IMG/VR virus record: IMGVR_UViG_3300005613_000011
Location: 1-64,000 of that record
Length of the DNA: 64,000 nucleotides
DNA from: a virus
Direction: 5' to 3' (one strand)
Under the pieces are notes generated by a model. The model saw only the letters and a program-made list of their open reading frames with translations. It was not told the DNA's origin and did not search any database. Of this stretch, positions 1,212 through 11,642 are shown piece by piece (positions within the stretch are counted from its first letter, which is position 1; each line of letters begins with the position of its first letter). A program made the translations under genes and the position numbers.

Positions 1212-1904
1212 TTAAAAATCGTCTGGCAGGAGAGATCCTTCGTTAGATCCTGTTGTTGGTGCTCCTATGAAGTCATCGGGCAGCAGAGATCCTTCGTTTG
1301 ACGTTGAGGTAACTGGTCCTGGTTTTACGTCTATCTCTATATAGTCATCTCCTGTTGAAGATATCTCGTCTTCGTAAGTTCCAATATAATCATCTATTTT
1401 CCTGTCTACTATTATATTATCTAGTGCTTTGTCTTGTTTCGACTGTCTTTTCTTTTGCCCTGCGAAATAATCTTTTCTTATTTTTGCTGCTTGCGATTCG
1501 GTTACTATCTGCAATTGACCGTTTTTAAGCATCTTCTTAAGTACCGGGTGTTCTTGGAACACGTCTTTCCCGTGTCTTTCATATAGTTCTTCAAGAGGGA
1601 CGAAGTGGGAAGGATTATTAAATTTCATGTCTAGTTCCTGTATCAGCATGCATCCCTTTGACGTTGTTCTCAGGTATGTCTTTTCGTCTTTTTGTACCGC
1701 TTCTTTTACTATTGTGCTTGATACTGTCTCTATTACTTCTACCACATCTTGGGCTGTAGCTTCTTGTGCGCTTGTTATATAGATGACCTTTTCGTTACCG
1801 ATTATTTGTTTTATTGCTTCTATGTCTGAAAACAGGCATTGTCTCTTGCCTTCGTTTGTATAGATGTCTAGGCATCCATTTCCCATGTTTAGAAATACAA
1901 TCAT
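1212..1904 (-). CDS. Hypothetical protein with duplicated C-terminal NEGSLLPDDF motif
   Basis: I do not recognise this 230-residue protein. A good Shine-Dalgarno (GGAGAAAATAAT before ATG) supports the start at 1904. The first ~75 residues look like an alpha/beta domain (IVFLNMGNGCLDIYTNE, EKVIYITS). The middle is charged, with FVPLEELYERHG...HPVLKKMLKNGQLQIVTE, a typical small folded unit. The tail (about residue 165 on) is acidic and disordered-looking, and ends with the decapeptide NEGSLLPDDF present twice, the second copy forming the exact C-terminus. Repeated terminal peptides of this kind often serve as docking motifs. The stop codon is directly followed by the GT9-like start. Confidence 0.7.
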   Translation of the reverse strand: MIVFLNMGNGCLDIYTNEGKRQCLFSDIEAIKQIIGNEKVIYITSAQEATAQDVVEVIETVSSTIVKEAVQKDEKTYLRTTSKGCMLIQELDMKFNNPSHFVPLEELYERHGKDVFQEHPVLKKMLKNGQLQIVTESQAAKIRKDYFAGQKKRQSKQDKALDNIIVDRKIDDYIGTYEDEISSTGDDYIEIDVKPGPVTSTSNEGSLLPDDFIGAPTTGSNEGSLLPDDF

Positions 1905-1988: not shown

Positions 1989-2423
1989 TTATTTTTTCTT
2001 CTTCTTTAATGTGGTATTTGAATAAAATGATGCCATTCCCCTGACTGAAGCATTGTCGCTTTTCATCGCCTTATCTGCACATGCTTTTGAGGGGCCAGAG
2101 AAACCATTTCTTTTGCACCATTCGGTAAATCTGCCTTTCTTTAGTTTCTTGGGCCAACCGTCTGACTCTTTTTTGCTTGCAGTTACAGTGATTTGAGGTT
2201 GTACTTGTTGATCTTCTTTTTTGACTTCTGCTTTTTTGTTTTGATCACGAATATGCTCGATACACCTATCATACTTCTCTTTGTCATTTTTATTCCATTT
2301 GCTTCTTTCTTGAGTCCCCGCTGTAGAGCCTACGCTTGTAATACAAATTGCGTAAGGATTAGAAGGTTTGTCGTATTTGCTTTTTCTTTTTCCTGAGAAT
2401 TTTTCAGTTTGAATAATTTTCAT
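1989..2423 (-). CDS. MKIIQTEKF-leader protein with Cys motifs, basic C-terminus
   Basis: This 144-residue protein begins MKIIQTEKF, identical over nine residues to the protein at 3394-3798, although the rest is unrelated. Residues ~22-55 (NPYAICITSVG...KYDRCIEHIRD) form a Cys-containing module of a type I associate with small environmental-phage proteins. Residues ~95-135 (RFTEWCKRNGFSGPSKACAD...MASFYSNT) form a second Trp/Cys module, followed by a Lys run (TLKKKKK). Function unknown. The spacing of the Cys residues could support metal binding or a disulfide, but no classic zinc finger is visible. It is last in a four-gene operon and is followed by a terminator. Confidence 0.7.
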   Translation of the reverse strand: MKIIQTEKFSGKRKSKYDKPSNPYAICITSVGSTAGTQERSKWNKNDKEKYDRCIEHIRDQNKKAEVKKEDQQVQPQITVTASKKESDGWPKKLKKGRFTEWCKRNGFSGPSKACADKAMKSDNASVRGMASFYSNTTLKKKKK

Positions 2424-2431
2424 TTTATCCC

Positions 2432-2944
2432 TTACAAATGACCGAACCTTCCTGGTTCGTCCTTTCTTAAATCATATTCATAGTCTACTCTAAGATCTTC
2501 TTCAGAGTCATAATCTAGATCTATCTCGTTAATTATATCTTCGTATTCGCCTTCTATAGTTTTTTTAACTTCGTCAGAAAGTTCTCCAATAGGCTTCCCG
2601 TTCACTATTAGTGTCACATTCGTGACTATTCTTTCGTCGTCTCCTTCTGGAGGCCAACCTAGTTGGTCTGGGCCACCATGCATTGAACCAGGGTCACGAT
2701 ATCCAGTACTTTCAAAATCTATTACTAATTCTATTTGGTCTTCACTGTCCAGTCTTATTGGAATAGTACTTACATCTTTGATAATGGCTGATTGAAGTTG
2801 ACCTGACAAGTCTATGTCATTAGTAATGTCAAAGAGGTTTCCTTCTTCTCCTATATTTATTTCAATAGAAAAACTACCTGGAACTTTATTCCATCTCTCT
2901 ACTGCTTCTTTTCTCAAGTACTTTGCTGTTTTAATTATTTTCAT
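2432..2944 (-). CDS. MKIIKTAKY-leader acidic protein, hypothetical
   Basis: This 170-residue protein of unknown function starts MKIIKTAKYLRKEAVERW, the shared leader followed by a short amphipathic helix. The body is acidic and beta-rich (SIEINIGEEG, IELVIDFESTG, VTNVTLIVNGKPIGEL), ending in a very acidic stretch (DLDYDSEEDLRVDYEYD). There is no membrane segment and no recognisable catalytic motif. The purine-rich sequence GAGAGAG lies upstream of the ATG at 2944. It is probably co-transcribed with its leader-sharing neighbours. Confidence 0.7.
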   Translation of the reverse strand: MKIIKTAKYLRKEAVERWNKVPGSFSIEINIGEEGNLFDITNDIDLSGQLQSAIIKDVSTIPIRLDSEDQIELVIDFESTGYRDPGSMHGGPDQLGWPPEGDDERIVTNVTLIVNGKPIGELSDEVKKTIEGEYEDIINEIDLDYDSEEDLRVDYEYDLRKDEPGRFGHL

Positions 2945-3005
2945 GTTTACTCTCTCTGTGGTTAAAGTTAGTTACAATCTACACGCCCCTGCGGGGCGCG
3001 ACCTA

Positions 3006-3389
3006 TTATATAAATCTATTTGTTAATTCTTTTAATAATTTTTGTAATCTTTGTTTATATGCTGCAACAGAGTTAGCAACATCTTCAATATCGCCGTTAT
3101 CTAATTTGATTGACAAGTCATATGTTTCGCCTAGATCCATACCGGCCAAGCGTTGAGCGATATAGTCACCTCCATAATAGTCTTGTCCTTCTGAAACATT
3201 AGATTGTGTTTTTGCTTTATCAATAATTTGCTTTTCTAGTTTGAATATCTCAAAACTATCTTTTCTAATAGATTCTAACTCCTCTGATGGACCTAGTTCC
3301 TTTGATGTCTCTAATAAAAATTTTGTAATCGCATCAAATAAATATACCTCTGCTCGTTTAATGTATTCTGTTGTTTTAATAATTTTCAT
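3006..3389 (-). CDS. MKIIKTTEY-leader helical protein, hypothetical
   Basis: This 127-residue, almost entirely helical protein starts MKIIKTTEYIKRAEVYLFDA. Long charged helices follow (SEELESIRKDSFEIFKLEKQ and VAAYKQRLQKLLKELTNRF), suggesting a coiled coil. The ATG is only 4 nt after the stop of the upstream gene (TAA-AAAA-ATG), the same stop-start spacing as in the mini-gene array at 10.4-11.4 kb, so reinitiation is likely. Function unknown. Confidence 0.7.
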   Translation of the reverse strand: MKIIKTTEYIKRAEVYLFDAITKFLLETSKELGPSEELESIRKDSFEIFKLEKQIIDKAKTQSNVSEGQDYYGGDYIAQRLAGMDLGETYDLSIKLDNGDIEDVANSVAAYKQRLQKLLKELTNRFI

Positions 3390-3393
3390 TTTT

Positions 3394-3798
3394 TTATCCC
3401 ATAGTCACAACCAGGTCATATTTTTCTAATGGTTCACTTATTTGCCCACAACCTGAAGCAATAACAGACCCGTATAACTTGTCGGGCTTACCTCTATTAT
3501 TAGTAAAGTCTATCTCAAATTTCCATTCTTTATAATCGTTTGGAATCTTCCATTTTTCCCTTGTCCATGTCTGTTGAAAACTTGGAGATACACCATATTC
3601 TGTACTTGTAATTGTATAACTTAGACCTAGACTGTCTATAGTCTTGAAAATCTCGTGAACAGGAACCCATGAATCGTCAGAAAAGATCCCTTGAGATATC
3701 GGGTAAAGTATTTTATGTAATTTATTTGACAAACTTTTCTTGGATATATTATCGAATGCGTTTCTTTGTGCGAATTTTTCAGTTTGTATAATTTTCAT
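3394..3798 (-). CDS. MKIIQTEKF-leader protein, hypothetical
   Basis: This 134-residue protein is first of the leader-sharing minus-strand operon. It starts MKIIQTEKFAQRNAFDNISK, while the remaining sequence (a Trp- and Tyr-rich beta domain with SFQQTWTREKWKIP and KEWKFEIDF) matches nothing I recognise. There is no clear Shine-Dalgarno before the ATG. A TATACT box on the minus strand about 20-30 nt upstream could be its promoter. Role unknown. The shared leader suggests the same destination or control as the other MKII proteins. Confidence 0.7.
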   Translation of the reverse strand: MKIIQTEKFAQRNAFDNISKKSLSNKLHKILYPISQGIFSDDSWVPVHEIFKTIDSLGLSYTITSTEYGVSPSFQQTWTREKWKIPNDYKEWKFEIDFTNNRGKPDKLYGSVIASGCGQISEPLEKYDLVVTMG

Positions 3799-8542: not shown

Positions 8543-9808
8543 TGTCAATTACCCCTCCCACAAGGGGAGGGGCTTGTTCAGCCGGATAAACTGGGAACAA
8601 TAGGCTGATTGACAACAGCCCTATCTGGATAGCCTGTAGCGTCCAGATATTTGAGACAAATATTACGACTAGCATTGAGGTCAGCATTAAGTTGAAAACC
8701 ACATTTCTTACAACTAAACAGAGATTGACAAACCCTGTTTGCTCTCTTAATATGACCGCATCTGCTACATCTCTGACTAGTATACCTTGCATCAACATAA
8801 ACAATATTAATGCCTTTGGATTCAGCTTTGTACTTAATTATCCACTCCAACTGGAAGAAGTTCCAACGATTAACTTCTTTACGTTGGGCTTTTCTCCAAT
8901 TGTTAGTACGCTTACGAATACCAGTCAAATCTTCAAACACCAAAGTGTCTCCGCTTTGAAGTTTGCTAACAATCTGCTTAGAGATGCAATGATTGGCATC
9001 TTTCCTAAACCGTCTCTCCTTACCTCTAACTTTGGTAAGGTGTCTTTTAGCAGACCTTGTTTTCTTAGATTGAAGTTGACTTCTCAATCGTTGATATCTA
9101 TCAGAAACTTGTTTAACTTTTCCACCACCAAAGAATCTATTGTCAGAGGTTACAGCAAGTTTTTTAACTCCTCTATCACAGCCAACAAGATTCCCAGTTG
9201 GTTCTATGTCAGAAACTTCTTTTTCAAAAACAACATGGAGAAAAACTCTTCCTTTGCTATCAATAAGCAAATTAGCAGAAGTGTGTTTCCAATCCAAATA
9301 ACGTTCAAAGTACTCAGGAATATTAAGGCTAAACTTCTTTCTACCATCAATAGTAAGAATAGAAACTTTTCTACTTTCAAGCCAAAGTGTATAGGAGTTC
9401 TTATCAAGCCTGACACTACATTGTTTGGATTGAGGGCAAGAAATATGTTGTTTCTTCTTTCTAAGTGCTTTAACAGATTTAAGGGATTCAGTAGCTTTCA
9501 TTCTAGCAGATATAGCCAGTTGAGAAGGCAGGTATTGTCTTGTTGTTTGATAGGTTTTGTGGTGAAGAGACACACCATTAATATCGAATGGATTAAAACC
9601 TATTTGACAGACAAAATTGTAAGCTTTTGTATAGGCTTCAATAGTTGGTTTGATATCTTGTGTTGAGATATCAAGTCTAAGTTTAGCTGTCCGAATGAGT
9701 TTCATATATTACTATTATCGGATAGTTCTAAAGATTCCTTTAATAATTTTTTCAAATAGGAGAAAGTAGCAATTCCTCCTCTACCGCAAGGGTAGAGGTT
9801 TCCTTGCT
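8543..9808 (-). mobile_element. IS200/IS605-type element carrying only tnpB
   Basis: The element is oriented on the minus strand. Its right end (8543-8580) contains a perfect hairpin (CCCCTCC...GGAGGGG), and its left end (about 9705-9808) contains a second hairpin (CCTCTACC...GGTAGAGG). A deleted copy at 26888-27088 has the same outer sequences, which defines the borders to within a few bases: shared sequence runs from TGTCAATT on one side to GCTACAAAGA on the other. There is no tnpA, so movement would need a transposase in trans. In this family the transcript of the right end normally serves as the guide (omega) RNA of TnpB. No target duplication is expected or seen. Confidence 0.8.
8578..9705 (-). 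CDS. tnpB: TnpB RNA-guided endonuclease (IS605 family)
   Basis: This 375-residue protein is full length for TnpB. The RuvC residues are all present: Asp177 in GCDRGVKKLAV, Glu258 in LVFEDLTGIR, Asp342 in NADLNASRNI. A four-Cys zinc ribbon lies between the last two (C313-x2-C316, C332-x2-C335). TnpB cuts DNA next to a short motif, guided by RNA from the element's right end, favouring element retention. The N-terminus MKLIRTAKL happens to resemble the phage's MKIIKTAKY leader. The gene looks intact, so nuclease activity is plausible. The flanking hairpins and the deleted sister copy support a mobile origin. Confidence 0.93.
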   Translation of the reverse strand: MKLIRTAKLRLDISTQDIKPTIEAYTKAYNFVCQIGFNPFDINGVSLHHKTYQTTRQYLPSQLAISARMKATESLKSVKALRKKKQHISCPQSKQCSVRLDKNSYTLWLESRKVSILTIDGRKKFSLNIPEYFERYLDWKHTSANLLIDSKGRVFLHVVFEKEVSDIEPTGNLVGCDRGVKKLAVTSDNRFFGGGKVKQVSDRYQRLRSQLQSKKTRSAKRHLTKVRGKERRFRKDANHCISKQIVSKLQSGDTLVFEDLTGIRKRTNNWRKAQRKEVNRWNFFQLEWIIKYKAESKGINIVYVDARYTSQRCSRCGHIKRANRVCQSLFSCKKCGFQLNADLNASRNICLKYLDATGYPDRAVVNQPIVPSLSG

Positions 9809-10438: not shown

Positions 10439-10651
10439 ATGAAAATAATACAAAAAACAATATGTGTGAGCAAGTCTTGGTCTAGTTCTTGGTCTACGTC
10501 TAGTTTTAGTTCTAGTTCTGGTTTTTGGTCTAGATCTTGGTCTTTGTCTTGGTTTAGTTCTAGTTCTACGTCTAGTTCTAGTTCTTGGCCTTATTCTTGG
10601 TCTTTTTCTTTGTCTTTTTCTAGTTCTTTGCCTAGTTCTAGGTTTAGGTGA
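10439..10651 (+). CDS. Ser-X repeat mini-protein, unit 1
   Basis: This 70-residue product begins MKIIQKTICVSKSW, followed by alternating Ser and mostly W, S, L, T, R, F at the X position (for example SWSTSSFSSSSG). No acidic residue occurs in the repeat. It lacks a Shine-Dalgarno, and the ATG is 4 nt after the stop that closes the unit 0 hexamer frame. No homology recognised. An amphipathic beta or low-complexity structure is plausible. Confidence 0.55.
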   Translation: MKIIQKTICVSKSWSSSWSTSSFSSSSGFWSRSWSLSWFSSSSTSSSSSWPYSWSFSLSFSSSLPSSRFR

Positions 10652-10655
10652 TAAA

Positions 10656-10838
10656 ATGAAAATGATACAAAAAATAATAAGAATAAATAGGTCTAATTCT
10701 AGGTCTTGGTCTACGTTTAGGTCTTGGTCTAAATCTAGTTCTTTTTCTTGGTCTTTGTCTTGGTCTTTGTCTTTGTCTTATTCTACGTCTAGTTCTTGGT
10801 CTTTGTCTACGTCTAGTTCTAGGGCTTGGTCTAGGTAA
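10656..10838 (+). CDS. Ser-X repeat mini-protein, unit 2
   Basis: This 60-residue product begins MKMIQKIIRINRSNSRSW, followed by Ser-X repeats (SWSLSWSLSLSYSTSSSW). It is spaced 4 nt from the previous TGA (TGA-TAAA-ATG). The leader differs from unit 3 by one residue over the first ten or so, while the repeat order differs freely, so repeats are shuffled or slip more than leaders. Confidence 0.55.
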   Translation: MKMIQKIIRINRSNSRSWSTFRSWSKSSSFSWSLSWSLSLSYSTSSSWSLSTSSSRAWSR

Positions 10839-10844
10839 CAAATT

Positions 10845-11027
10845 ATGAAAATGATACAAAAAATAATAAGAACAAATAGGTCTTATTTTTACTCTTGGTC
10901 TAGTTCTTGGTCTAGTTCTTGGTCTAGTTCTTGGTCTAGTTCTTGGTCTAGTTCTTGGTCTAGTTCTTATTCTAGTTCTTTGTCTTATTCTAGGGCTTGG
11001 TCTACGTCTACGTCTTGGTCTTGGTAA
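10845..11027 (+). CDS. Ser-X repeat mini-protein, unit 3
   Basis: This 60-residue product begins MKMIQKIIRTNRSYFYSW. It contains the most regular tract of the array: a 12-bp unit TCTTGGTCTAGT repeated about six times, giving SWSS repeats, a sign of recent slippage expansion. The ATG is 6 nt after the stop of unit 2. Confidence 0.55.
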   Translation: MKMIQKIIRTNRSYFYSWSSSWSSSWSSSWSSSWSSSWSSSYSSSLSYSRAWSTSTSWSW

Positions 11028-11031
11028 CAAA

Positions 11032-11190
11032 ATGAAAATGATACAAAAAATAATATGCGCGAGGAAATCTAGTTCTTTGTCTTGGTCTAGTTCTTTGTCT
11101 TTGTCTAGTTCTTTGTCTTGGCCTTATTCTAGGTCTTATTCTTGGTCTAATTCTTGGTCTTTTTCTTGGTTCAGTTCTAGGTTTTGGTGA
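11032..11190 (+). CDS. Ser-X repeat mini-protein, unit 4
   Basis: This 52-residue product begins MKMIQKIICARKSSSLSW and ends SWFSSRFW. It is the shortest open unit. It contains single-base changes of the invariant Ser codon (TCT to CCT, and TTC near the end), showing point divergence on top of repeat turnover. The ATG is 4 nt after the stop of unit 3. Confidence 0.55.
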   Translation: MKMIQKIICARKSSSLSWSSSLSLSSSLSWPYSRSYSWSNSWSFSWFSSRFW

Positions 11191-11194
11191 CAAA

Positions 11195-11416
11195 ATGAAA
11201 ATGATACAAAAAATAATAAGAACAAATAGATCTTGGTCTTGGTCTTGGTCTTGGTCTAGGTCTTGGTCTAGTTCTAGTTCTCGTTCTTGGTCTACGTCTT
11301 GGTCTAGGGCTAATTCTGGGTCTTCTAGTTCTTATTCTTGGTCTTGGTTTTTGTCTACGTCTTTTTCTAGTTCTTGGTCTTGGGCTTGGTCTAGTTCTAC
11401 GTCTTGGTCTTGGTAA
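11195..11416 (+). CDS. Ser-X repeat mini-protein, unit 5
   Basis: This 73-residue product begins MKMIQKIIRTNRSWSWSW and carries the longest Ser-X tract, ending STSWSW. Its stop (TAA) lies 4 nt before the ATG of the ordinary leader-bearing gene at 11421, tying the array to that gene as one transcription unit. Confidence 0.55.
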   Translation: MKMIQKIIRTNRSWSWSWSWSRSWSSSSSRSWSTSWSRANSGSSSSYSWSWFLSTSFSSSWSWAWSSSTSWSW

Positions 11417-11420
11417 CAAA

Positions 11421-11642
11421 ATGAAAATAATACAAAAAATAATAAGAATGAACACTAAAGAAGATTTGCAAATTGAATTAGACTTTTTTGTTAAGAAAAT
11501 CAGGGAAACAGGTTTTGATATTCGTGTCAGTTGGACTGACGAATACAGTAAAATGCAGAGCGTGTTTGGACATGTTAATTCCCACGTAGAAAAAAGATAC
11601 AAGTTTAAACTAGACGAAGAAGAAACCGATACAATAGATTAA
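11421..11642 (+). CDS. MKIIQKIIR-leader globular protein after the array
   Basis: This 73-residue protein begins MKIIQKIIRMN, the array leader, but continues as a normal mixed protein (TKEDLQIELDFFVKKIRETG, then WTDEYSKMQSVFGHV) with an acidic end. It shows that the leader is a real coding N-terminus which has been joined to unrelated bodies. Start spacing is TAA-CAAA-ATG. Function unknown. Confidence 0.65.
   Translation: MKIIQKIIRMNTKEDLQIELDFFVKKIRETGFDIRVSWTDEYSKMQSVFGHVNSHVEKRYKFKLDEEETDTID

Follow-up and report, generated by a model that had tools for sequence, protein, structure and literature searches.

Four consecutive minus-strand genes of a virus (starts at 3798, 3389, 2944, and 2423) all begin MKII[KQ]T..[FY] and continue into unrelated bodies. 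The question raised by this locus is what a nine-residue start does on proteins that otherwise have nothing in common. The genes lie in a window of 64,000 nucleotides, positions 1 to 64,000 of the 113,266-base IMG/VR record IMGVR_UViG_3300005613_000011. The proposal made here, with a probability of about two in three, is that huge phages of a clade allied to Bacillus phage G use the start as an N-terminal targeting propeptide (leader) for their internal head (cargo) proteins. Should this hold, the peptide would name the head cargo, likely early-infection effectors, of widespread and mostly unannotated huge phages. It would also reveal the rule by which the phage-G-type protease cuts, and could serve as a tag that brings foreign proteins into very large heads. 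Since phage G is cultivated and its virion spectra are reportedly published, the rule could soon be checked.

The shared start and its distribution

The leader genes, their candidate sites, and the genes downstream of the block are:

3394 to 3798, minus strand: leader gene 4, MKIIQTEKFAQ followed by the body; candidate site K8-F9-A10 ahead of Q
3772 to 3798, minus strand: nine-residue leader of gene 4 (MKIIQTEKF)
3769 to 3777, minus strand: candidate K-x-A site of gene 4 (KFA), a putative cut aligned to the internal KYA, then Q, of relatives
3006 to 3389, minus strand: leader gene 3, MKIIKTTEYIKRA followed by the body; start MKIIKTTEY, candidate site K11-R12-A13 ahead of E
3363 to 3389, minus strand: nine-residue leader of gene 3
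3351 to 3359, minus strand: candidate K-x-A site of gene 3 (KRA), a presumed cut aligned to the internal KTA, then Q, of relatives
2432 to 2944, minus strand: leader gene 2, MKIIKTAKYLRKEA followed by the body; start MKIIKTAKY, candidate sites KTA (residues 5-7) and KEA (12-14)
2918 to 2944, minus strand: nine-residue leader of gene 2
1989 to 2423, minus strand: leader gene 1, MKIIQTEKFSGK followed by the body; start MKIIQTEKF, candidate sites KFS (8-10) and RKS (13-15)
2397 to 2423, minus strand: nine-residue leader of gene 1
1212 to 1904, minus strand: downstream gene without leader (MIVFLNM...), conserved in contigs L005 and L011 with 47% identity
507 to 1211, minus strand: downstream gene without leader, conserved in L005 and L011 with about 62-64% identity
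1 to 510, minus strand: downstream gene truncated at the record end, with 57% identity to L005 and L011

The open reading frames are as an earlier sequence-only reading had described them, including the identical MKIIQTEKF of genes 4 and 1. That reading had named full-length homology of the bodies as one finding that would overturn it; the bodies (residues 17 on), compared with each other by blastp, gave no match at E<=1e-3. A search of the whole record for DNA encoding MKII[KQN]T gave exactly four matches, one at each of these genes, and the reversed-pattern control gave 0 matches there. Given how often each residue occurs at the gene starts of this record, 3.6e-4 such genes would be expected, and the probability of at least four is about 7e-16, for a pattern whose residues were picked post hoc.

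None of the four bodies matched a Pfam or PHROG family above noise; phrog_12120 reached only E=0.051, over residues 1-31 of gene 2. The predicted structure of gene 2 has a mean pLDDT of 60.1, with residues 1-21 below 50, and its comparison with the PDB gave nothing at E<=0.001. Protein 1 found no relative in the viral contigs or phages. By eye, a leader protein at L098:1521-1721 (NPWAVC..VGRED..KYERCV) looks like gene 1 of the window (NPYAIC..VG..KYDRCI).

Relatives of protein 2 were found in two IMG/VR contigs, L004 and L005, whose version of the block comprises four to six leader proteins. In both, the counterparts of bodies 3 and 4 form the C-terminal portion of a longer leader protein (for gene 4, L004:6205-6822 and L005:6144-6755), and the junctions read NIKTAQ ahead of body 3 and S[VI]KTEKYAQ ahead of body 4. 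Further downstream, the full-length relative of the truncated gene (L005:10145-10924) has a weak phage-protease match (phrog_3677, E=0.0023). By eye, the truncated gene and this relative have a subtilase-like pattern that seems to lack the usual surroundings of Asp and His; the model of this neighbor has a pLDDT of 38.7, too low to judge the pattern by.

As the sequence-only reading had suggested, proteins with this start were collected from the genome and its relatives, yielding 38 leader proteins in 27 body families from 12 records, the window's own included. The pattern scan of viral contigs gave 33 stretches, about a dozen of which are plausible starts of proteins of at least 60 residues, the remainder being short or within other frames. 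Whole-record scans found at most four strict matches per new record, except for six in G002; in nearly every record the matches shared a strand, and the reversed pattern had no match in the scanned leader contigs. Residues 2, 3, 4, 6, and 9, which the pattern-based selection itself favors, are nearly invariant, and variation jumps from residue 10. Moreover, Lys stands at residue 11, a position outside the selection pattern, in 15 of 27 families (background 0.088, p=9e-10).

A fifth leader gene of the record, with a GTG start, reads MKIIKTREY and carries the candidate site KIA (record positions 73361-73558; L001:9361-9558). The related starts that had been claimed for the repeat array and at 11421 did not hold up. 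They read MKMIQKII or MKIIQKII without the T6..[FY]9 pattern, are near-identical DNA repeats down to the bases ahead of the start, and form part of a Ser/Trp tandem-repeat array; they are something other than the leader. At 10439-11416 the window holds tandem 12-base-type repeats whose plus-strand frames are Ser/Trp-rich and whose minus-strand frames are Pro/Arg-rich, the units with the MKMIQKII start being near-identical. A minus-strand gene at 8578-9705, presumably an IS605-type TnpB gene, starts MKLIRTAKL, a resemblance to the leader that is probably due to chance.

Head modules and the K-x-A motif

In two relatives, G001 and G002, the gene order is portal, a protease fused to a very long scaffold-like ORF, decoration protein, MCP, and then the leader block. 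The head modules of these relatives are phage-G-like, their MCP being 52% identical to gp27 of phage G. Where MCP and terminase were both found (G004, G006, G009, and G010), all 12 strict matches (4, 4, 1, and 3) lie between them. This bracket spans about 110 of 333 kb (about 33%), and a random spread would give roughly 1.6e-6, a hand calculation in which gene clustering is ignored. Counting against this, in G001, G002, and the window the block lies outside the interval from terminase to MCP. The window's own record gave no MCP, terminase, or protease match; it is therefore probably a fragment, and its packaging machinery is deduced from relatives. A head maturation protease PHROG was found in seven of the 12 leader records and in phage G.

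Loci chosen by their MCP gave a converse view. Among 80 such loci, 14 hold 28 MKII-type genes, and permuted patterns gave 0, 0, and 1. The leader had already led to eight of the 80 contigs; among the remaining 72, only seven carry MKII-type genes within 10 kb (12 genes), which counts against the proposal. As separate observations, the terminase at L008:448-3540 has an intein/LAGLIDADG insert (PF14528, E=2e-13), and the portal and protease of L010 also seem to bear inteins.

A cleavage motif was then sought among all 400 residue pairs spaced by one, using one sequence per family and shuffles for comparison. In T4, the internal proteins and Alt carry a capsid-targeting sequence (CTS) that is cut by gp21 at the motif I/L-x-E. 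In a positive control with T4 gp67, gp68, and gp21-24, I.E ranked first and L.E third, and neither came out on top in gp15-19, so the scan is able to find a known protease motif. In the head-module genes of the clade, K.A ranked first of 400 (112 versus 73.9 shuffled, z 4.8), and it did so again in phage G gp4-gp27 (60 versus 32.6, z 6.0). The reversed pair A.K was near expectation, and in non-head genes K.A ranked 140 (window record and L053) and 44 (phage G, a set covering about half of the genome). A.E, S.E, and G.E were absent from the eight most enriched pairs, so the head genes do not show the S/A/G-x-E motif of the phiKZ/SPN3US type.

After removal of leaders and proteases, K.A stood second to G.G in the head-module genes (97 versus 59.7). 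Several results count against the motif: within residues 1-40 of head genes without leaders K.A was not clearly enriched (13 versus 8.2, rank 23), and no obvious site was seen by eye in the MCP. Moreover, in loci chosen by MCP alone (the eight contigs met through the leader excluded), K.A was second to K.I upstream of the MCP (113 versus 82.3) and ranked 42 downstream.

The protease itself carries the motif. Of 70 proteases found in the MCP-chosen loci, nine were excluded as cut, short, or duplicate. The N-terminal extension ahead of the protease domain in the remaining 61 has one aligned column triple, K/R (59/61), any residue, and A (58/61), followed mostly by S (42/54). [KR].A occurs in this extension in 59 of 61, versus 21.0 in shuffles; the control [KR]..[AS] was also frequent (55/61) because A usually precedes S. 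Phage G gp19 reads VKTA at the same site, and a phmmer search of gp19 against the PDB gave nothing useful. In the portals, K-x-[AS] was seen by eye near the start of the conserved part in nine of nine compared. In seven loci whose protease has R-T-A, a co-variation test gave no switch from K.A (43 versus 32.9) to R.A (17 versus 14.1).

The leaders also appear to carry this presumed cleavage motif, which is deduced from its enrichment in head genes and proteases. [KR].[AS] occurs within leader residues 2-20 in 24 of 27 families (12.3 in shuffles, 0/5000) and within residues 10-20 in 20 of 27 (8.0 in shuffles, 0/5000; reversed motif 5). An earlier test had also raised the control K..[AS] because leaders are Lys-rich, and it was therefore redone with shuffles of the same residues. 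The most telling cases are genes 3 and 4, with K-T-A and K-Y-A at the internal junctions of the relatives. It counts against the motif that K5-x-[AS]7 is found in just 13 of 27 families and that three of 38 leaders have no [KR].[AS] site. A depletion of [KR].[AS] in leader bodies (52 versus 75.3) was rejected as evidence, since the window's tail genes show a similar dip, in the reversed motif as well; a protease-scaffold entry with an out-of-frame sequence was dropped from that comparison.

Proposed propeptide and alternative explanations

In the proposed mechanism, otherwise unrelated bodies that carry M-K-I-I-K-T-x-[KN]-[YF] would be collected by the growing prohead core. The prohead protease would then cut after [KR]-x-[AS], mainly K-x-A, taking off the leader either at residue 7 or a few residues further along. 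The mature protein would stay in the head and would probably be ejected along with the DNA. The sequence-only reading had left a sorting signal and a translation signal side by side. Clustering in head modules, unrelated bodies, and a motif over-represented in head proteins and retained by the proteases indirectly support capsid targeting; the translation signal is disfavored by internal copies, GTG starts, and varied codons.

Alternatively, the leader could be an uncleaved docking peptide that attaches to scaffold or portal and is never removed; the K-x-A enrichment would then reflect scaffold degradation only. Conservation of the nine-residue core beyond K-x-A would suit such a peptide, as would the half of families without [AS] at residue 7. 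It is nonetheless considered unlikely, since [KR].[AS] follows the core far more than in shuffles and K-x-A is retained at the internal junctions of relatives.

Sorting to another place, such as the host membrane, a replication compartment, or the tail, is given a very small chance. Neither the fifth leader gene nor its L053 homologue lies in a head module, which favors this explanation and counts against head cargo; on the other side stand the 12 of 12 bracketed matches in head modules and the peptide itself, which is short and basic and, by eye, is no signal peptide.

Even less is to be expected of a translation or mRNA signal at the start codon, made of A-rich early codons or a copied start region. 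Leader codons are indeed A-rich beyond body usage (of 38 leaders, 35 use AAA for K2 and 28 use ACA for T6), and this counts against a propeptide. However, 36 distinct 27-nt forms encode the 25 peptides, three starts are GTG, and Thr6 and Tyr/Phe9 are conserved as residues. Moreover, the similar sequence inside the longer proteins of relatives has no start codon, and the K-x-A kept there fits a processing site, unlike a signal bound to the translation start. Recent duplication of one gene start (a promoter-RBS-leader cassette with a functionless peptide) is hardly credible, because although two window leaders differ at only 1 of 27 nucleotides, the peptide is kept with varied codons in 27 families and 12 records.

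Known systems and other shared starts

The proposed targeting propeptide has its nearest parallel in T4, whose CTS, according to excerpts of PMC5694885, has 10-20 residues and serves in targeting before it is removed. In both, otherwise unrelated proteins begin with a short leader, the phage group has a head maturation protease, and the presumed motif of that protease is enriched in head proteins. Here, however, the motif is [KR]-x-[AS], the core is MKIIKTxxY, the set of bodies is another, and the function is proposed from sequence. By this analogy, the mechanism is most likely like that of the T4 CTS but with a different cleavage motif (excerpts of PMC5694885 and PMC10052503). The same excerpts describe head proteins of giant phages that are N-terminally trimmed by a prohead protease, which likens phiKZ and SPN3US to the present proposal. 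Their motif, in contrast, is S/A/G-x-E or A-x-E, and most SPN3US propeptides are far longer, at 111-254 residues (PMC10052503, in excerpt). The literature searched on capsid targeting, prohead proteases, and phage G, partly in excerpt, yielded neither this leader nor a K-x-A motif; a prior report may exist in the main paper on the phage G virion, which lies outside that search.

Phage G (Donellivirus gee) shares with the clade the related MCP, the related protease gp19, and the first rank of K.A, but its leader sequence class is another, and the forward MKII-leader pattern had no match in it. Its commonest shared start on unrelated bodies is MKRLI (seven families), with the site a residue or two later. 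The MKRLIKK[AS]-type class counts nine proteins (permuted controls 0), among them gp284 (ParB-like) and gp336 (weak match to RNA 2'-phosphotransferase). Further starts are shared by unrelated bodies in the MCP-chosen loci L067-L146, namely MNWYK (10 families) and MKIYR (five families). In the MCP-selected loci, [KR].[AS] has a sharp positional peak starting at residue 5 (residues 5-7), with 10.7 of 53 families upstream of the MCP (20%) and 32.0 of 278 downstream (12%), versus about 2% at most other positions. The peak persists without the MKII leaders (5.7/45 and 29.0/273); the counts elsewhere are 1.5/93 in the non-head set, 1.5/264 in phage G outside the head, and 0/24 in its head set.

It is tentatively suggested, at somewhat less than even odds, that interchangeable start tags mark fast-changing, unrelated head cargo in phage-G-like huge phages, and that one K-x-A protease trims the tags and splits fused cargo. 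The set would comprise MKIIKTA, MNWYKKA, and MKIYRLA, with MAFKKTA on the protease itself and MKRLIKKA in phage G, all of which have [KR]-x-[AS] within about eight residues of the start. If such a code is true, sequence would suffice to list the cargo that uncultured huge phages eject.

Most leader bodies have no Pfam family. Those that do include InPase (PF18823), DUF5662, DUF5661, and 2H phosphoesterase, RyR and zinc ribbon being below the cut-off. Phage homologues of the InPase protein match mostly from query residue 29-34 (among 15 listed of 397 records), so the leader is not part of the InPase domain. Phage InPase proteins are described as likely virion-packaged in excerpts of PMC5512222, in which phage polyvalent proteins with InPase and other domains are predicted to be packaged and injected. 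In this they would resemble the leader proteins, which differ in being mostly small and apparently single-domain with a common leader. Finally, two neighboring leaders (L048:17297 and 16897) share a longer start, MKIIKTEKYGRFLTE, which contains L-x-E, the T4-type motif, in place of K-x-[AS].
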